A stretch of DNA of 64,000 bases from Geothrix sp. PMB-07 (GTDB lineage Bacteria > Acidobacteriota > Holophagae > Holophagales > Holophagaceae). Positions within the stretch are counted from its first letter, which is position 1. Each line of letters begins with the position of its first letter. The position numbers and the translations under genes are program-made. The stretch spans positions 1,426,992-1,490,991 of the forward strand of contig NZ_CP132333.1 of the NCBI RefSeq assembly GCF_030758935.1, read 5' to 3'. Positions 33,836 to 44,616 of the stretch are shown in pieces. The notes beneath the pieces are model-generated. The model saw nothing but the letters and a program-made list of their open reading frames with translations. It searched no databases and had not been told where the DNA came from.

Positions 33836-35782
33836 ATGCCGCTTGACGCTGTTTCGCTTCCTGGCCGAGTAATGTTCCTTACGGAGGATCCGGGGAAGAT
33901 CCTCCGCCAGCTGGCCGGAGATGATTTGGAGCTGGCGGAGGCTCTGCCGCTGCGCGATCAGATCAGCACCGATGAGATCACGCCGGCCTTCATCTGCTAT
34001 CACTTCGACGAAAAGCTGGGGGACTTTCCCTACCTGGGCCTGAAGTGCGGGGACACGTTTCCGCTGAAGGAGGGCAGCGTGCGCGCGGGCGGATTTTCCG
34101 TCAGCGTGGCGGGCAGGCGCCGGGGCAAGGGCAGCAGCCGCGAAGCGAGCCCCTATGCGGAGCTGTGCGCAGGCATCCGTCTGGTGATCGCCGAAAGCTT
34201 CGAGCGCATCTACCGTCAGAACGCCCAGAACCTGGGCCTGCTCACCAGCACGGACTTCGGCTTGATCCCGCGCATCCGCCGTGGTGAAACCATCCCTCTG
34301 GCTGAATTCACCGCGGGCCTGGATGCGGTCACCGCCGAGATCGTCCGGCGCGGGGGTCTCTTTGCCTACAACGCTGCACGGTTGGCGGGCGAGGTGGCGC
34401 CCCCGCTGCCGGAGCACGTCCACCGACCCATGACCTATGCAGAGAAGCTGCTGGCCCGGCAGGCGGTGGTGGATGCGACACGGGGTCGGATCGGTCTCGC
34501 CTCGGTGAGGCCAGGCGACGGCCTCTTCGTGCAGGCGCACTGGCGCTTCAGCCACGAGTACGTGACCCCCATGGCCGCGAGCTTCCTGGAGAAGGCCCTG
34601 GGGCCTGATGTCACGCTGCGCGATCCGGCCAGCATCCTCGCCTTCCGGGATCACCTCACCTTCCTGCACCACAGCATGAAGGCGGAGCACCGCGCCATGG
34701 GCCTGCTGACGGTGGCGGAACGTCTGAAGCCGGCGCAGGAATCCTTCTGTGCCAAACACGGCATCCGACTCCACGGCGAACTGGCGGATGGTTCTGGCAG
34801 CGAAGGCATCTGCCACGCCATCATGGCGGAGCGCTACGCCTGCCCAGGCCAGGTGGTGGTGGGCACGGATTCCCACACCCCTCACGCGGGCGCTCTGGGG
34901 TGTCTGGCCTTCGGGGTGGGCACCACGGACATTGCCTGCGCCTGGGTGACCGGGGATGTGCGCGTCACCGTGCCGCCCACGCTGCGGGTGCGCCTGAACG
35001 GGCGCCTGCGCGCTGGCGTATCCGCCAAGGACATCGTGCTCCACTTGCTGGCCCAGCCCCTCATCCGCGAAGGCGGCGCCATCGGCCACGTGATGGAGTA
35101 CCAGGGTGAGGCCCTGGTGGATCTCGACACCGATGAGCGCGCCACCCTCACCAACATGGCGGCGGAGATCGGCGGTTTCACTGGGCTCATCGCCCCGGAT
35201 GAGGAAACCCTGCGCTTCATCGAAGAGCGACGGGGCGTGCGGCTGGCGCTGGAGCCGTGGATGCAGGGCGATGAGGGGGCCGAGTACGCGCACACCCTGG
35301 AGGTGGATTGCGCCGCGCTGGGGCCCATGCTGGCGCGGCCCGGCGACCCTGGGAATGGCGTGGCCCTGGCCGATCTGTCGGAGCCGGTGCCCATCCACAT
35401 CGCCTACCTGGGCAGTTGCACCGGGGGCAAGCGCGAGGACCTGCGGCGAGCCTACGACGTGGTGCGCAGCGCCGCAGCCGAGGGGCGCCGCGTGCCCGAG
35501 GGTGTCCAGTTCTTCGTGCAGTGCGGCAGCGAGGAAGTGCGCCGCCACGCGGTGGCGCAGGGCTGGATGGCGGCCTTCGAGGCCGTGGGGGCCATCGTGT
35601 TGGGCAGCTCCTGCGGGGCCTGCATCAACGCGGGGCCCGGCGTGTCCACCCATCCCGACCAGGTCACCATCAGTGCCATCAACCGGAACTTCCCGGGCCG
35701 CAGCGGCCCCGGCCAGATGTGGCTGGCCAGCCCCGCGACGGTGGCCGCCAGCGCCCTCGCTGGGCACATCGTGGGGGCCTGA
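33836..35782 (+). CDS. Aconitase-family hydro-lyase with swapped domain order (LeuD-like then LeuC-like)
   Basis: A 648-residue [4Fe-4S] dehydratase. Residues about 35-165 are a small swivel (LeuD-like) domain: RDQISTDEITPA, SVSVAGRRRGKGSSREASPYAE, VIAESFERIYRQNAQNLGLL. Residues about 195-648 are the LeuC/aconitase core: VGTDSHTPHAGALGCLAFGVGTTD, cluster Cys in YLGSCTGGKRED and the pair in GSSCGACINAGPG. In aconitases the swivel domain is C-terminal, so the order is reversed. The substrate (isopropylmalate, homocitrate or another 2-alkylmalate) cannot be read from the sequence. No leuB or homocitrate synthase is nearby. Confidence 0.82.
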   Translation: MPLDAVSLPGRVMFLTEDPGKILRQLAGDDLELAEALPLRDQISTDEITPAFICYHFDEKLGDFPYLGLKCGDTFPLKEGSVRAGGFSVSVAGRRRGKGSSREASPYAELCAGIRLVIAESFERIYRQNAQNLGLLTSTDFGLIPRIRRGETIPLAEFTAGLDAVTAEIVRRGGLFAYNAARLAGEVAPPLPEHVHRPMTYAEKLLARQAVVDATRGRIGLASVRPGDGLFVQAHWRFSHEYVTPMAASFLEKALGPDVTLRDPASILAFRDHLTFLHHSMKAEHRAMGLLTVAERLKPAQESFCAKHGIRLHGELADGSGSEGICHAIMAERYACPGQVVVGTDSHTPHAGALGCLAFGVGTTDIACAWVTGDVRVTVPPTLRVRLNGRLRAGVSAKDIVLHLLAQPLIREGGAIGHVMEYQGEALVDLDTDERATLTNMAAEIGGFTGLIAPDEETLRFIEERRGVRLALEPWMQGDEGAEYAHTLEVDCAALGPMLARPGDPGNGVALADLSEPVPIHIAYLGSCTGGKREDLRRAYDVVRSAAAEGRRVPEGVQFFVQCGSEEVRRHAVAQGWMAAFEAVGAIVLGSSCGACINAGPGVSTHPDQVTISAINRNFPGRSGPGQMWLASPATVAASALAGHIVGA

Positions 35783-36765: not shown

Positions 36766-37034
36766 GGAGCCTGTCTAAGTCATGGGTGGGGGCCGCACTG
36801 GGGCGCCAGCCGAGGGAGGCAAGGAAGGCGACGAAGGCCCTGGCGGTTCCAGGGGCGAGGAGCCTGACGCTGCATCCCGACGGCTGCCGCCCCAGCCCGA
36901 AGGGTTGGCGGCAAAGGGGCCCCCATGCTGTGTCGGCGGGCTTGAACGGTGAATCTCACCGCCCTGCACCCGCCTCCGTGCCTGGAGGCCCTTTGCCGTC
37001 AATGCAGCCCCTATCGATGACTTAGACAGGCTCC
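36766..37034. mobile_element. MITE-like non-autonomous element, 269 bp
   Basis: Perfect 18-bp terminal inverted repeats (36766-36783 and 37017-37034, GGAGCCTGTCTAAGTCAT) that continue imperfectly for about 17 more bases. The ends resemble the IS5-family ends in this window (GCCTGT...AAGTC). The interior has no gene and includes a hairpin near 36884-36912. No clear target duplication is visible. The right end supplies the dgkA stop codon. Confidence 0.72.
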
Positions 37035-37370
37035 AAGGAACGCGAGGAAGGTGCCCACGGCGCTGAGGCTGAACACCAGCACGGCTCCGGCGGCGCAGTC
37101 CTTGGCCACCTTGATGGCCGGGTGGATCTCAGGATGCAGGTGGTCGAGGGTCTGCTCCAGGGCCGTGTTCAGCAACTCGGCCCCCAGCACCAGGCCGCAA
37201 TTCATCAGCAGCAGGGCCCACCAGAGCGGCGCGGGGCGCACCGCCACGAGGACCGCCACCACCCCCAGGGCCATCAGAGCCTGCGAGCGGAAGCTGGCCT
37301 CCTGCCGCCAGGCGCTGCGGATGCCCTGGAGGCTGTAGGAGAGGCGATGGTGGAAGGGCTGGTTCTTCAT
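37011..37370 (-). CDS. dgkA: Diacylglycerol/undecaprenol kinase DgkA with MITE-encoded C-terminus
   Basis: Small inner-membrane lipid kinase, 119 residues, three membrane helices. N-terminal amphipathic region HRLSYSLQGIRSAWRQEASFRSQ and the catalytic segment GAELLNTALEQTLDHLHPEIHPAIKVAKDCAAGAVLV are present. ATG 37370 starts the homologous part. The last seven residues (GACLSHR) and the stop lie in the right inverted repeat of the MITE-like element, so the native C-terminus has been replaced. The third helix seems nearly complete, so activity is plausible. Confidence 0.88.
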   Translation of the reverse strand: MKNQPFHHRLSYSLQGIRSAWRQEASFRSQALMALGVVAVLVAVRPAPLWWALLLMNCGLVLGAELLNTALEQTLDHLHPEIHPAIKVAKDCAAGAVLVFSLSAVGTFLAFLGACLSHR

Positions 37371-37495
37371 GCGGACCCTTGCGGCGGGAAGCCCCCATTG
37401 TGACACCGGAGGTTCCAGAGCCCAGGGCTGCGCTTCCCGCGGAATCTGTGTGAATCTGGGAAGCCGGTGACCTGACCTTCCTCTTCGAGCGCCCC

Positions 37496-39448
37496 ATGTT
37501 TGATCCCGTCCTAACTGCCCGCTACCGCGCCCTGCTGTTGACGGGCCTAGCGCGCGAAGGCGCGCCCGCTCTGGAGTCCAGCTCCAGAGTTCTGGTGGTG
37601 GACGTGGCCCGCCAAAGGCTGGGTCTGATCGAAGCTGGCCAGTTGGTGTTCGAGGCGGTCATCTCCACGGCCCGCAATGGCCTGGGGTGCGAAGAAGGCT
37701 CGTACCGCACGCCCACGGGCTGGCATCGCATCCATGCGCGCATCGGTGCGGGCGCGGAGCCGGGCAGCGTTTTCCGCAACCGGGTGGCCACGGGCGAAGT
37801 CTGGCGGGGAGAGGCCCGAGAGGAGGATCTGATCCTCACGCGCGTGCTCACCCTGGATGGACAGGAAGAGGGCTGGAATCGCGGCCCTGGGCGGGATTCC
37901 CTGGAGCGCTTCATCTACATGCACGGCACCAACCAGGAGGGGCAGCTGGGCACGCCCGTGTCCCACGGCTGCGTGCGCCTGGGCAATGCCGAGGTGCTCG
38001 ACCTGTTCGACCGGGTGGCCGAGGGGGACCTGCTCCTCATCGCCGAAGGAACGCCAGGGGATGGCCTGGGGCTTGGGCGATTGCACTTCGCTGGAGTCGG
38101 AGGCAGCGGCATGAGCGCCCTGGCCCAGTTCGTGGCGATGAAGGGCGGCCGGGCCAGCGGCAGCGACCGCAGCTTCGACCGGGGTGAACGAACGGAATCC
38201 CGAGCGCAGCTGGAAGCCCTGGGCGTGGCCATCCATCCGCAAAATGGTTCAGGCCTGGAAGGGGACTGCTCGGCCCTGGTGGTGTCCACCGCCGTGGAGG
38301 AGGATGTGCCCGATGTGGCTGCGGCCCGGCGCCTGGGCGTGCCCGTGCTGCACCGCTCAGAGTTGCTGGCCCATCTGGTGGCGCGGTACCGCACCGTGGC
38401 GGTGACGGGCACCAGCGGCAAGTCCAGCACCGTGGCCATGATCTTCGAGATCCTGCGCGGCGCCGGCCGCGACCCTTCCATCATCACCGGCGGCGATCTG
38501 GTGGCGCTTCAGCGCCAAGGCCTGTGGGGCAACGCCTGGGCAGGAGCCTCGGACCTGCTGGTCATCGAGGCCGATGAAAGCGATGGCTCCGTGGTGCGCT
38601 ACCACGCCGCGGTGGGCGTGCTGCTGAACCTGCAGCGCGACCACAAGGAAATGGAGGCCGTGGCCGAGATGTTCCGGACCTTCCGGGTCCAGGTGCGAGA
38701 AACCGCGGTGGTGGGTGAAGCGGAGAACCTGCGGGCATTCGCCGGAGGCAGTCTGGTCTTCGGGTTTGGCGAAGGGGCGCAGCTTCGCACCGAGGGGCTT
38801 TCGCTTGGCGCGGAAAGCTCCGCTTTCCGCGTGAGGAATACAGACTTCCGTTTGCCGGTGCCAGGGCGGCACAACGTCGAAAACGCCTTGGCGGCCATCG
38901 GAGCCTGCATGGCGCTGGGCGTTCCCCTCGAAGCCATGGTGGAGCCGCTCTCGGCCTTCCAGGGCGTGGCCCGCCGCTTCCAGGTGTTGGGCACCCGGGC
39001 CGGCGTTACCGTGGTGGATGACTTCGGCCACAACCCGGCCAAGGTGGCGGCCTCCATCCGGGCGGCCCACTTGCGCCTGGCCGCTGCGGGCGGGCGCCTG
39101 CTGGCGGTGTTTCAGCCACACGGTTTCGGCCCCCTGAAATTCCTGCGGGCGGATTTCGTGGAGAGCTTCTCCGCCGAGCTGCGCGCCCAGGACCGGCTCT
39201 GGTTCCTGGATGTGTTCTACGCCGGTGGCACCGCCGCCAAGGACATCAGCTCGGGCGACGTCATCGGCGATCTGGTGGCGCGGGGGGTTCAGGCCGAGCA
39301 CGCCCCATCACGGAAATGGCTGGTGGAGCGACTCGCCGCCGAGGCGAGGGAAGGAGACCTCATCCTGATCATGGGGGCGAGGGATCCCTCCCTGACGGAC
39401 CTGGCCAAGGGCATTCTGGCCGCCTTGCCCGGTGGCGGTTCGGAGTAG
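37496..39448 (+). CDS. L,D-transpeptidase (YkuD) fused to a MurC/Mpl-type Mur ligase
   Basis: A 650-residue two-enzyme fusion. Residues about 28-185 form a YkuD domain with HGTNQEGQLGTP (His143) and SHGCVRLGN (catalytic Cys159). Residues about 195-650 form a Mur ligase: HFAGVGGSGMS (N-terminal Rossmann, like MurC), VTGTSGKSST (P-loop Lys309), IEADESDGS, and the C-terminal VVDDFGHNPAKVAASI. YkuD enzymes are normally periplasmic, but no signal peptide is visible, so both halves are probably cytosolic. Inference: a peptidoglycan-recycling or precursor-editing enzyme that trims or exchanges the stem peptide and ligates it. It lies 9 bases before mazG. Confidence 0.85.
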   Translation: MFDPVLTARYRALLLTGLAREGAPALESSSRVLVVDVARQRLGLIEAGQLVFEAVISTARNGLGCEEGSYRTPTGWHRIHARIGAGAEPGSVFRNRVATGEVWRGEAREEDLILTRVLTLDGQEEGWNRGPGRDSLERFIYMHGTNQEGQLGTPVSHGCVRLGNAEVLDLFDRVAEGDLLLIAEGTPGDGLGLGRLHFAGVGGSGMSALAQFVAMKGGRASGSDRSFDRGERTESRAQLEALGVAIHPQNGSGLEGDCSALVVSTAVEEDVPDVAAARRLGVPVLHRSELLAHLVARYRTVAVTGTSGKSSTVAMIFEILRGAGRDPSIITGGDLVALQRQGLWGNAWAGASDLLVIEADESDGSVVRYHAAVGVLLNLQRDHKEMEAVAEMFRTFRVQVRETAVVGEAENLRAFAGGSLVFGFGEGAQLRTEGLSLGAESSAFRVRNTDFRLPVPGRHNVENALAAIGACMALGVPLEAMVEPLSAFQGVARRFQVLGTRAGVTVVDDFGHNPAKVAASIRAAHLRLAAAGGRLLAVFQPHGFGPLKFLRADFVESFSAELRAQDRLWFLDVFYAGGTAAKDISSGDVIGDLVARGVQAEHAPSRKWLVERLAAEAREGDLILIMGARDPSLTDLAKGILAALPGGGSE

Positions 39449-39457
39449 CCTGGAGGC

Positions 39458-40249
39458 ATGGAACCCCTCACCCTCCGCGCCGTCATGGCCGCGCTCCGCA
39501 AGCCGGAGTCGGGCTGCCCCTGGGATCTGAAGCAGGATCATCAGACCCTGGCCAAGTACCTCCGCGAGGAGGCTGCCGAAGTGCTGGAAGCGCTGGCCGC
39601 GCATCGGCCCTTCGACGAAGCCACCGAGATGCACCTCTGCGAGGAGCTGGGCGACCTGTGGCTGCAGATCGCCTTCCACGCCCAGCTGGCGGCGGATCGC
39701 GGCGCCTGGGACATCCATGACGTGGAGCAGGCCGTGGTGGAGAAGCTGGTGCGGCGCCACCCCCATGTCTTCGGAGAGGTGGCCGTGGAGGGCGCGGAGG
39801 GCGTGCTCACCAATTGGGCCGCCATCAAGCGCGAAGAGAAGGGCCTCACCGAGGCCACCGAGCCCCGCCTGCTGGAGGGCATCCCGGCCACCTTATCGCC
39901 CATGGACGAGGCCCTGGAGATCGGCCACCGCTGTGCCAAGGTGGGCTTCGAGTGGCCCGATCTGGAAGGCGTGCTCGACAAGGTGAAAGAAGAAGTCGCG
40001 GAGCTGCAGGCGGAATCCGATCCCGTGCGGGTGGAGGAGGAATTCGGTGATGTGCTTTTCAGCCTCATGCAGTGGGCGCGGAAGAAGGGCGTGGATCCCG
40101 ATGCCGCGCTCCGGCGCCAGATGCGGCGTTTCAAGGTGCGCTTCCAGGCCGTGGAAGACGATGCCCGGGCCGCAGGAGGCTGGGAGCACCGGAACCTCGA
40201 TCAGATGGAAGCGGCCTGGCAGGCGGCGAAACGGAAGGGGAAGGAGTGA
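39458..40249 (+). CDS. mazG: Nucleoside triphosphate pyrophosphohydrolase MazG
   Basis: House-cleaning NTP pyrophosphatase that hydrolyses (d)NTPs to NMPs and may limit ppGpp. It has 263 residues with two MazG helical repeats: YLREEAAEVLEAL with HLCEELGDLWLQIAFH, and VKEEVAELQAE with VEEEFGDVLFSLMQWAR, both carrying EExxE...ExxD metal ligands. CPWDLKQDHQTLAKY is the family N-terminus. It starts 9 bases after the LDT-Mur gene and overlaps the next start by one stop/start junction (GTGATGG). Confidence 0.95.
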   Translation: MEPLTLRAVMAALRKPESGCPWDLKQDHQTLAKYLREEAAEVLEALAAHRPFDEATEMHLCEELGDLWLQIAFHAQLAADRGAWDIHDVEQAVVEKLVRRHPHVFGEVAVEGAEGVLTNWAAIKREEKGLTEATEPRLLEGIPATLSPMDEALEIGHRCAKVGFEWPDLEGVLDKVKEEVAELQAESDPVRVEEEFGDVLFSLMQWARKKGVDPDAALRRQMRRFKVRFQAVEDDARAAGGWEHRNLDQMEAAWQAAKRKGKE

Positions 40250-40767
40250 TGGTTTTGCTCTGGCTGTCCCAGCCCGGGGCCCAGCCGCCCCTGGGCTTCT
40301 TGCTGATCTTCATCCCCCTGGTGTTCCTGGGAGCCACCTGGATCAGTAACCGCCTGCTGGGAATTCCGGCCATGTATCGGGATTGGCCCGCGGACCGGAC
40401 CGATCCCATCGAGCGGAACGTGGGCTGGCAGCAGGTGGAGTTCGGCGCCTTCCGCGGTCACTGCCCCATGTCCATCAAGTTCGGTCAGCGCTGCCTGCAC
40501 CTCAAACAACCCTTTCCCTTCCAGCCGTTCTACTGGCTGGGCCCGGCCTCCATCCCCTGGAGCGAGGTGCGGCTGGAGAAGGCGCCTTCGGACCGTTGGT
40601 GGGCATTCCTCAGTGCCGCAGAATTCCGCCTCGGGGCAGGTGGGCGGATGATCCGGTTGCGGGGCAAAGCCGCGCGCGCACTCATGGAGCGGGTGAAGGG
40701 CGCTCCCGGCGGACAAGGACCGGGCCACAGGCCGCCAGTGGTTTCGGGGACCATCCGGCCGCGCTGA
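40249..40767 (+). CDS. Membrane-anchored protein of unknown function
   Basis: A 172-residue protein with one strong N-terminal membrane segment (about 15-38, PLGFLLIFIPLVFLGATWI) and a soluble remainder with a PH-like look (WQQVEFGAFRGHCPMSIKFGQRCLHLKQP, IPWSEVRLEKAPSDRWW). ATG 40249 overlaps the mazG stop (TGATG), with GAAGGAG just before it, so it is translated with mazG. No family recognised. Confidence 0.75.
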   Translation: MVLLWLSQPGAQPPLGFLLIFIPLVFLGATWISNRLLGIPAMYRDWPADRTDPIERNVGWQQVEFGAFRGHCPMSIKFGQRCLHLKQPFPFQPFYWLGPASIPWSEVRLEKAPSDRWWAFLSAAEFRLGAGGRMIRLRGKAARALMERVKGAPGGQGPGHRPPVVSGTIRPR

Positions 40768-43251: not shown

Positions 43252-44616
43252 TTGAACCCACTTCCCTTCCATCTGGTCACCCTCACCCACCCGGAGTGGG
43301 AGCAGGCCCTGCATTGCGCCAAACACCTTGGTGAGGATGCGCTGCCGGAATTGCGCCTGGATCTCTTTCCCGATGCCGATCCCGAAGCCCTGGTGGATGC
43401 CCTGAAGCGGCGTTGCCTGGTGACCTGCCGCCGGGTATCGGAAGGGGGCCGCTGGCCTGACGAGGATGAAGCCGGGCGCCTGGCGCACCTCTTCAAGGCC
43501 CTCAAGGGCAAACCGCAATGGATGGATCTGGAGTGGGACCTGCCCATTCCGCCGGAGATCGAAGCAGCCCGGACCCATGTGCGTCTGCTGCGCTCCATCC
43601 ACGTTCCTCCCGGCACCTTCGATCTGGCTGAACGGCTGGACCGTCTGCCCGATGGAGAAGCCTTCAAGTGGGTGGGCTGGGCGAGGCGATTGGGTGACAA
43701 CGGCCGGTTGAAGGCGCCGCTGGCCTGGGCCCGCAACCATGGTCTGCGTCTGTCAGCCTTCCTCATGGGCCCCAAGGGCCTGCCCAGCCGGGCCCTGCAG
43801 TCGGTGTGGGGCGGAGCCTTCACCTACGCGGCCCCGGATGATGGCCCCGCCGCCGCTCCGGGGCAGTTGCCGCTGGCCACCCTGCGGGCCTGGCGTTCCG
43901 CCAAACTGCACCCGGGCCATGGCCTTTGCGGCGTCATCGGCGATCCCGTGCTCCATTCGCGGGGCCCGGCCTTCCACAACCCGCGTTTCCAGGCCGCCTT
44001 CAAGGATCTGCTCTACCTTCCCCTGGTCTGCGGCGAGGCCTCCGAAGCGCTGGAGGCGCTGGACGCCCTCGACATCCTGGGCCTCAGCATCACGGCTCCC
44101 TTGAAGCTGGCGCTGCCCGAGGCCCTGGGCCTGCAGGGCCCCCTCAACACCCTCTGGCGCCGCTCGCCGGGCGCGCCCTGGCAGGGCGCCAACACCGATG
44201 CCGAGGCTTTTGAACAATCACTGTCGCATCTGGAGTCGGGGCCAGTCCTGCTGCTGGGCGAAGGGGGCGTGGCCCGCACCAGCCTTGCCGTGCTGGAAGG
44301 TGCGGGGCGGAAGGTGCTCCAGGCATCACGCCGCCTGCCGATCACGCCGGAGGCCGTGGCGGCGTTCGCACCGGTGGGCCTCGTGCAGGCCACCAGTTTG
44401 GGCATGAACGCGGAGGATCCGGCGCCATTCCCAGAATTGTTGGAGGCTTCCCGGGGCAGCGCCCGGTGGGCCGTGGAGTGGATCTACAAGGAGGACACCG
44501 CCTTCGCCCTGTGGTCACGGGAGGCCAACCTGCAGGTGGTGGCCGGGGCCGCGCTCTTCGAGGCCCAGGCCGAAGCCCAGAGCCGCCGCTTCATCGCAGG
44601 CTGCGGCGGGGTGTAG
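43252..44616 (+). CDS. aroDE: Bifunctional 3-dehydroquinate dehydratase / shikimate dehydrogenase
   Basis: Fused third and fourth steps of the shikimate pathway, 454 residues. N-terminal type I dehydroquinase (about 1-215): ELRLDLFPD, VTCRRVSEGG, RSIHVPPGTFD (catalytic His) and AFKWVGWAR (Schiff-base Lys). C-terminal shikimate dehydrogenase (about 220-454): CGVIGDPVLHSRGPAFHN, GLSITAPLKLALPE (catalytic Lys), GANTDAEAFEQSL (Asp) and the NADP region LLLGEGGVARTSLAVL. Such fusions are known in plants and some bacteria. TTG 43252 is the only plausible start; no strong ribosome site is seen. Confidence 0.9.
   Translation: MNPLPFHLVTLTHPEWEQALHCAKHLGEDALPELRLDLFPDADPEALVDALKRRCLVTCRRVSEGGRWPDEDEAGRLAHLFKALKGKPQWMDLEWDLPIPPEIEAARTHVRLLRSIHVPPGTFDLAERLDRLPDGEAFKWVGWARRLGDNGRLKAPLAWARNHGLRLSAFLMGPKGLPSRALQSVWGGAFTYAAPDDGPAAAPGQLPLATLRAWRSAKLHPGHGLCGVIGDPVLHSRGPAFHNPRFQAAFKDLLYLPLVCGEASEALEALDALDILGLSITAPLKLALPEALGLQGPLNTLWRRSPGAPWQGANTDAEAFEQSLSHLESGPVLLLGEGGVARTSLAVLEGAGRKVLQASRRLPITPEAVAAFAPVGLVQATSLGMNAEDPAPFPELLEASRGSARWAVEWIYKEDTAFALWSREANLQVVAGAALFEAQAEAQSRRFIAGCGGV

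Follow-up and report, generated by a model that had tools for sequence, protein, structure and literature searches.

Recycling of the stem peptides of peptidoglycan is thought to require LdcA (or ElsL, LdcV) plus Mpl. In Acinetobacter, ElsL is a YkuD protein of the cytoplasm that has no leader and serves as the L,D-carboxypeptidase of peptidoglycan recycling; it cuts the disaccharide tetrapeptide to the tripeptide, does not cut the pentapeptide, and yields a product that Mpl then uses, and its loss is toxic via Mpl-dependent reuse of the tetrapeptide (PMC8649774). Single chains that carry two cytosolic peptidoglycan steps have been described, namely, MurB-MurC of Verrucomicrobium spinosum (PMC4803751) and MurC-Ddl (PRK14573). 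However, those proteins join biosynthetic steps, whereas the Holophagaceae fusion gene described here joins a predicted recycling hydrolase to a ligase. The gene lies at 37496..39448 (+) of a stretch of 64,000 nucleotides from Geothrix sp. PMB-07 (contig NZ_CP132333.1), the whole of which is called the window below. The host is a bacterium of soil and groundwater, and its genome of 4.24 Mb is a single contig. As read from its sequence, this one cytoplasmic protein unites two recycling enzymes that bacteria normally keep apart. We consider it likely that it is a bifunctional peptidoglycan-recycling enzyme that would trim the tetrapeptide to the tripeptide and then ligate it to UDP-N-acetylmuramic acid (UDP-MurNAc), replacing LdcA or ElsL plus Mpl.

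The open reading frame starts with ATG and runs through 650 residues with no internal stop. Pfam placed YkuD at residues 31 to 179 (37586..38032), Mur_ligase at 196 to 299 (38081..38392), Mur_ligase_M at 303 to 470 (38402..38905), and Mur_ligase_C at 493 to 629 (38972..39382), all on the + strand and each above its gathering score, so that the joining of a YkuD domain and a Mur ligase in one gene, first claimed from the sequence-only reading, was borne out. The three ligase domains are predicted to bind UDP-MurNAc, to bind ATP, and to accept an amino acid or peptide, respectively. Between the two enzymes is a linker of residues 185 to 195 (38048..38080, +), the length of which differs among relatives in the homologue alignment. 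The predicted model of the whole chain, built from 31 sequences, has a mean predicted local distance difference test score (pLDDT) of 89 and a predicted template modeling score (pTM) of 0.88. Upstream of the ATG the frame can be extended by 14 codons at most, where it is bounded by a TGA, and the residues of that extension, IWEAGDLTFLFERP, are not a signal peptide. Frame analysis and Kyte-Doolittle hydropathy found no signal-peptide-like hydrophobic stretch in the first 45 residues, the most hydrophobic 12-mer scoring 0.94 compared to 1.91 in a neighbouring protein with an export-like N terminus. A signal peptide is thus neither present nor possible, because an in-frame stop stands 15 codons upstream, and the absence of an export signal that had been noted earlier holds.

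By sequence, the YkuD half resembles ElsL most, rather than a periplasmic transpeptidase. It matched PF03734 with 71.5 bits (E value, 1.5e-19; cut-off, 23.4) and contains the catalytic SHGC(I/V)R Cys/His motif. Its best curated family was ElsL (NF040925), with 131.7 bits over positions 8 to 160 of the 164-position model, compared to 24 bits for L,D-transpeptidase models, and its sequence matches to Bacillus subtilis YkuD and other L,D-transpeptidases were weak and partial. Whole-chain matches by Foldseek and VIA were dominated by the ligase, and this half was judged by sequence. With ElsL of Acinetobacter baumannii it shares a leaderless YkuD domain of ∼150 residues, the HGT and SHGCxR motifs, a predicted cytosolic location, and the presence of AmpG in the same genome. 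It differs from ElsL in falling below the 270-bit family cut-off and in being joined to a ligase. The published ElsL survey took stand-alone proteins of ∼105 to 200 residues, and ElsL has no signal peptide or transmembrane helix; the fusion agrees with the latter description, as judged by frame and N-terminal hydropathy, and at 650 residues lies outside the former. Since that survey excluded proteins of >200 residues (PMC8649774), YkuD-ligase fusions would have been missed. The sequence-only reading had seen a paradox in a normally periplasmic YkuD domain in the cytosol; a cytoplasmic L,D-carboxypeptidase of the YkuD type is already known in ElsL, the best curated match here, and the paradox dissolves. 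The ElsL-like genes of the sister family f2 stand alone, some with and some without a signal peptide; closely related domains may therefore act on both sides of the membrane.

The ligase half, to judge from its sequence, is neither MurC nor Mpl but a member of a third clade with peptide-pocket residues of its own. In a tree of 54 ligases, the ligase halves of the fusions grouped with stand-alone relatives from alpha- and deltaproteobacteria (support, 100/100), apart from both MurC (99/97) and Mpl (100/100); with MurD as the outgroup, support for the third clade was 89/99. This clade is repeatedly associated with L,D-carboxypeptidases, which are of two unrelated folds (YkuD and S66) and are either fused to one or the other end of the ligase or encoded next to it. 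In four alphaproteobacterial loci (L082, L084, L086, and L087) an S66 (LdcA-type) gene adjoins the clade ligase gene in divergent orientation. In a metagenome-assembled genome of a rumen alphaproteobacterium (L085, 3455-5752), S66 is fused to the C terminus of the ligase in a protein of 763 residues, both parts of which exceed their gathering scores. In Holophagaceae UBA1801 (L079), on a contig that contains gaps of N, the ligase begins without YkuD and an S66 gene stands directly behind it. The linkage was counted in 100 genomes of the order to which the Sphingosinicella genome G336 belongs. The clade ligase was present in 23 of these (590 to 686 bits, compared to ≤344 bits for MurC), with an S66 gene ≤1.5 kb away in 22 of the 23 versus none of 7 MurC loci. 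One and the same divergent S66 subfamily (66 to 84 bits) was found in all 23 ligase-bearing genomes, whereas the remaining 77 had none of its members; with unlinked labels the chance of this co-occurrence is 4e-23, although the genomes are related, and so the independent events are far fewer. LdcA, the S66 muramoyltetrapeptide carboxypeptidase, catalyzes the reaction expected of the YkuD half and is the partner of the clade ligase in Alphaproteobacteria and Holophagaceae UBA1801. Unlike the YkuD half, it has an unrelated fold and serine chemistry. That other bacteria couple the clade ligase to an L,D-carboxypeptidase of a second, unrelated fold is the strongest evidence for a recycling role.

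The genetic background of the host is consistent with such a role. The window's genome encodes AmpG (above cut-off), AnmK, and a 339-residue GH3 protein of NagZ size. Mpl was not found in that genome, where all matches to the Mpl model were the fusion, MurC, or further Mur ligases; neither was a further, stand-alone ElsL-type protein, nor S66 (LdcA), which was also not found in about two-thirds of the genus. The distribution of these parts over the class seems complementary: family f1 carries the fusion but neither Mpl nor a stand-alone ElsL, in f2 the majority of genomes encode Mpl and an ElsL-like protein separately, and f3 has S66 without Mpl. In the mechanism we propose, turnover muropeptides would be imported via AmpG and stripped of their sugars, and the YkuD half would remove D-Ala from the tetrapeptide to give the tripeptide. 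The C-terminal ligase would then use ATP to activate the carboxylate of UDP-MurNAc and attach the tripeptide, forming UDP-MurNAc-tripeptide for MurF, so that a single fusion would do the job of LdcA or ElsL plus Mpl. With the trimming site beside the ligation site, the tetrapeptide, a source of dead-end lipid II, would stay unligated; the fusion may in this way prevent the toxic tetrapeptide from entering lipid II. We infer both activities, the order of the steps, and the coupling of the two sites, as well as the peptide substrate of the ligase, to which the gene linkage and the residue changes described below point.

Several observations weigh against this reading. The ElsL-like YkuD relatives L095, L097, and L099 (around 1345-2046) carry a signal peptide. 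A search of the window's genome for Amidase_2 (AmpD type) found none. The stand-alone ligases L077, L078, L080, and L081 have no adjoining carboxypeptidase. In about one-third of the genus a canonical S66 enzyme is also present, and therefore the YkuD half is not always the sole cytosolic L,D-carboxypeptidase.

Searches of the open-access literature found no description of a YkuD-Mur fusion, an S66-Mur fusion, or the third ligase clade. According to recent reports, Caulobacter and Agrobacterium have neither Mpl nor an L,D-carboxypeptidase and instead break the peptide down (PMC13046382, PMC9790009). In orders related to theirs, the third ligase clade is found linked to L,D-carboxypeptidases; Mpl models miss this clade, and it would change the count of bacteria that reuse stem peptides. 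An enzyme that trims and ligates in one chain would also make it directly testable whether coupling prevents toxic misligation of the tetrapeptide. A wider proposal is put forward tentatively, since we think it somewhat more apt to fail than to hold: the clade would be an overlooked third family of enzymes that ligate peptides to UDP-MurNAc, present in Alphaproteobacteria, Holophagaceae, and some deltaproteobacteria and served by an L,D-carboxypeptidase of exchangeable fold (S66 or YkuD), and in the fusion the sites would be coupled such that only the tripeptide is ligated, a safety catch against toxic tetrapeptide precursors.

The alternative that survives best, unlikely as we judge it, reverses the order of the steps or allows both orders, with the ligase also taking the tetrapeptide and the YkuD half then editing UDP-MurNAc-tetrapeptide to UDP-MurNAc-tripeptide as a form of proofreading. 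Mpl does accept tetra- and pentapeptides, less efficiently (PMC3060825), misligated tetrapeptide harms Escherichia coli without LdcA (PMC13046382), and a fusion would hold an editing site beside the ligase. However, ElsL and S66 enzymes are usually separate proteins that act upstream of the ligase.

In a less probable alternative still, the ligase half would add L-Ala, as a second enzyme of the MurC type that might serve special conditions, and the YkuD half would be unrelated cargo or a regulator of the ligase. The description "MurC/Mpl-like" given by the sequence-only reading stood in part, as the half is indeed nearer to MurC (TIGR01082, 300.3 bits) than to Mpl (TIGR01081, 107.1 bits), but it passed neither cut-off (335.1 and 388.7, respectively). 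MurC is its top curated match and supplies its nearest solved structures, and L077, a stand-alone relative, passes the MurC cut-off with 348.3 bits. Superposition of the predicted model on Haemophilus influenzae MurC with UDP-MurNAc-Ala (1p3d) gave a Z score of 46.5 and a root mean square deviation of 1.9 over 436 residues, compared to a Z score of 31.3 on Mpl (3hn7); identity to MurC is ∼30 to 38%. The three Mur domains, the P-loop, and the Mg/ATP residues are kept, with G-T-S-G-K-S and E-A-D-E-S-D invariant in the fusions; the P-loop reads GTSGKS (residues 305 to 310, 38408..38425, +) in place of the GTHGKT of MurC and Mpl in the homologue and clade alignments. Given these conserved sites and the fit to 1p3d, UDP-MurNAc is the likely acceptor.

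The peptide pocket is different. In H. influenzae MurC the reported contacts to L-Ala are Tyr346, Arg377, and Arg380 (PMC3060825). These positions are Tyr, Arg, and Arg in 22, 21, and 22 of 22 MurC proteins, versus Phe, Gly, and Pro in 84 to 85 of the 85 clade members. The changes lie in two motifs: DDFGHNPAK (residues 508 to 516, 39017..39043, +; DDYGHHPTE in MurC), the N and K of which occur in 85/85 clade members and 0/22 MurC, and QPHGFGPLK (residues 540 to 548, 39113..39139, +; QPHRxxR in MurC), where G543 (85/85) and P546 (84/85) stand for the arginines of MurC (21/22 and 22/22). A third, GARD (residues 627 to 630, 39374..39385, +; GAGx in MurC), is likewise found in 85/85 clade members and 0/22 MurC. 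The clade-specific residues of the peptide domain, Asn513, Lys516, and Arg629-Asp630, are thus shared by all 85 members. Mpl also has Phe for Tyr346 and neither Arg377 nor Arg380, and it has the three Mur domains and the reaction expected here (peptide, UDP-MurNAc, and ATP). Unlike Mpl, however, the clade alignment contains none of the motifs (S/T)AFFDKRSK, EPRSNT, and SNGG, the first two of which were defined in PMC3060825, and the tree separates the two. A canonical MurC is encoded elsewhere in the window's genome (G000:C1:2584714) and in nearly every genome examined. With this separate MurC and the replaced L-Ala contacts, the fusion ligase is not the housekeeping MurC, and a second MurC would neither be expected in a separate clade with full support nor explain why L,D-carboxypeptidases of two folds are linked to it. 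The protein belongs to the YkuD family and to the Mur ligases, yet lies outside ElsL by cut-off and length, outside Mpl by cut-off, motifs, and tree, and outside MurC by cut-off and pocket; it probably functions like ElsL plus Mpl.

Slightly more improbable than a second MurC is a YkuD half that acts as a cytosolic transpeptidase, exchanging the D-Ala at the end of the peptide for a different amino acid, or making 3-3 linked soluble fragments, before ligation. Exchange-active enzymes do occur among YkuD domains, and the catalytic motifs are complete: HGT (residues 143 to 145, 37922..37930, +) in the active site and SHGCVR (residues 156 to 161, 37961..37978, +) with the catalytic Cys159. Nevertheless, the nearest curated family, ElsL, is hydrolytic, the alternative partner of the clade ligase, the S66 muramoyltetrapeptide carboxypeptidase, is a hydrolase, and D-Ala-D-Ala from MurF could not be added to a swapped tetrapeptide. 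The sequence-only reading had a cytosolic enzyme either swap or remove the terminal D-residue and ligate the peptide to UDP-MurNAc. Of these, removal with ligation has the best support; swapping appears much less likely than removal of D-Ala because the best curated match of the domain is ElsL.

The suggested search for other YkuD-Mur fusions recovered the frame in 35 of the 37 genomes of the host genus, the two without it being 71 to 80% complete, and in four more genera of Holophagaceae, in one of these on a truncated contig. One family member with a genome of 1.2 Mb (G222) is without the fusion. Beyond the family, a search of 297 genomes of the phylum with the ligase half gave MurC-type matches only. 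Among 27 full-length fusion homologues, H143-G144-T145, S156-H157-G158-C159-x-R161, and the P-loop G305-T-S-G-K309-S are all invariant, in agreement with the complete motifs reported earlier, and the linker varies in length. Because the fusion is conserved across Holophagaceae, a frameshift or assembly error does not account for it; these and the other possible refutations raised at the outset, a start error and an upstream signal peptide, were examined, and none occurred. That two neighbouring genes were misread as one has a negligible chance of being right, for although the halves are in different frames in a few draft assemblies (L072 and L074), a single open frame occurs in nearly all of >40 genomes, among them isolates with complete or few-contig assemblies, the linker can be aligned across genera, and the whole-chain model is confident.

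Some relatives (L045, L062, G009, and G035) have a longer Pro/Gly-rich linker of ∼30 to 50 residues between the enzyme halves. The setting of the gene also varies. In three loci from other Holophagaceae genera (L065, 1052-4177; L071, 1938-7816; L074, 107-2934) the fusion lies directly 3' of murE-(murF)-mraY-murD, inside the mur cluster; the Mur gene directly upstream had been suspected to be Mpl and was identified as murD. In the host genus, by contrast, the fusion adjoins dgkA and mazG. The dgkA-like gene (37011..37406, −; Pfam DAGK_prokar) had been described as convergent and is actually divergent, head to head with the fusion; it is syntenic in part of the genus and stands outside the proposed mechanism. 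Downstream, after a gap of 9 bases, is mazG (39458..40249, +; NCBIfam PRK09562, above cut-off), which is likely cotranscribed and has no known link to the fusion. Behind mazG, an open reading frame at 40249-40764 (+) has a hydrophobic N-terminal region and no Pfam matches; neither it nor mazG adds to the functional picture. The mazG, dgkA, and PAP2 genes were considered as functional partners and rejected, the neighbourhood being conserved in only part of the genus.

Two further genes in the window have unusual domain arrangements. The 454-residue open reading frame at 43252-44616 (+) encodes an aroD-aroE fusion, with a type I dehydroquinase ahead of the N domain of shikimate dehydrogenase. 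At 33836-35782 (+), a 648-residue protein of the aconitase family has its match to the "C-terminal" swivel domain before the match to the catalytic domain.
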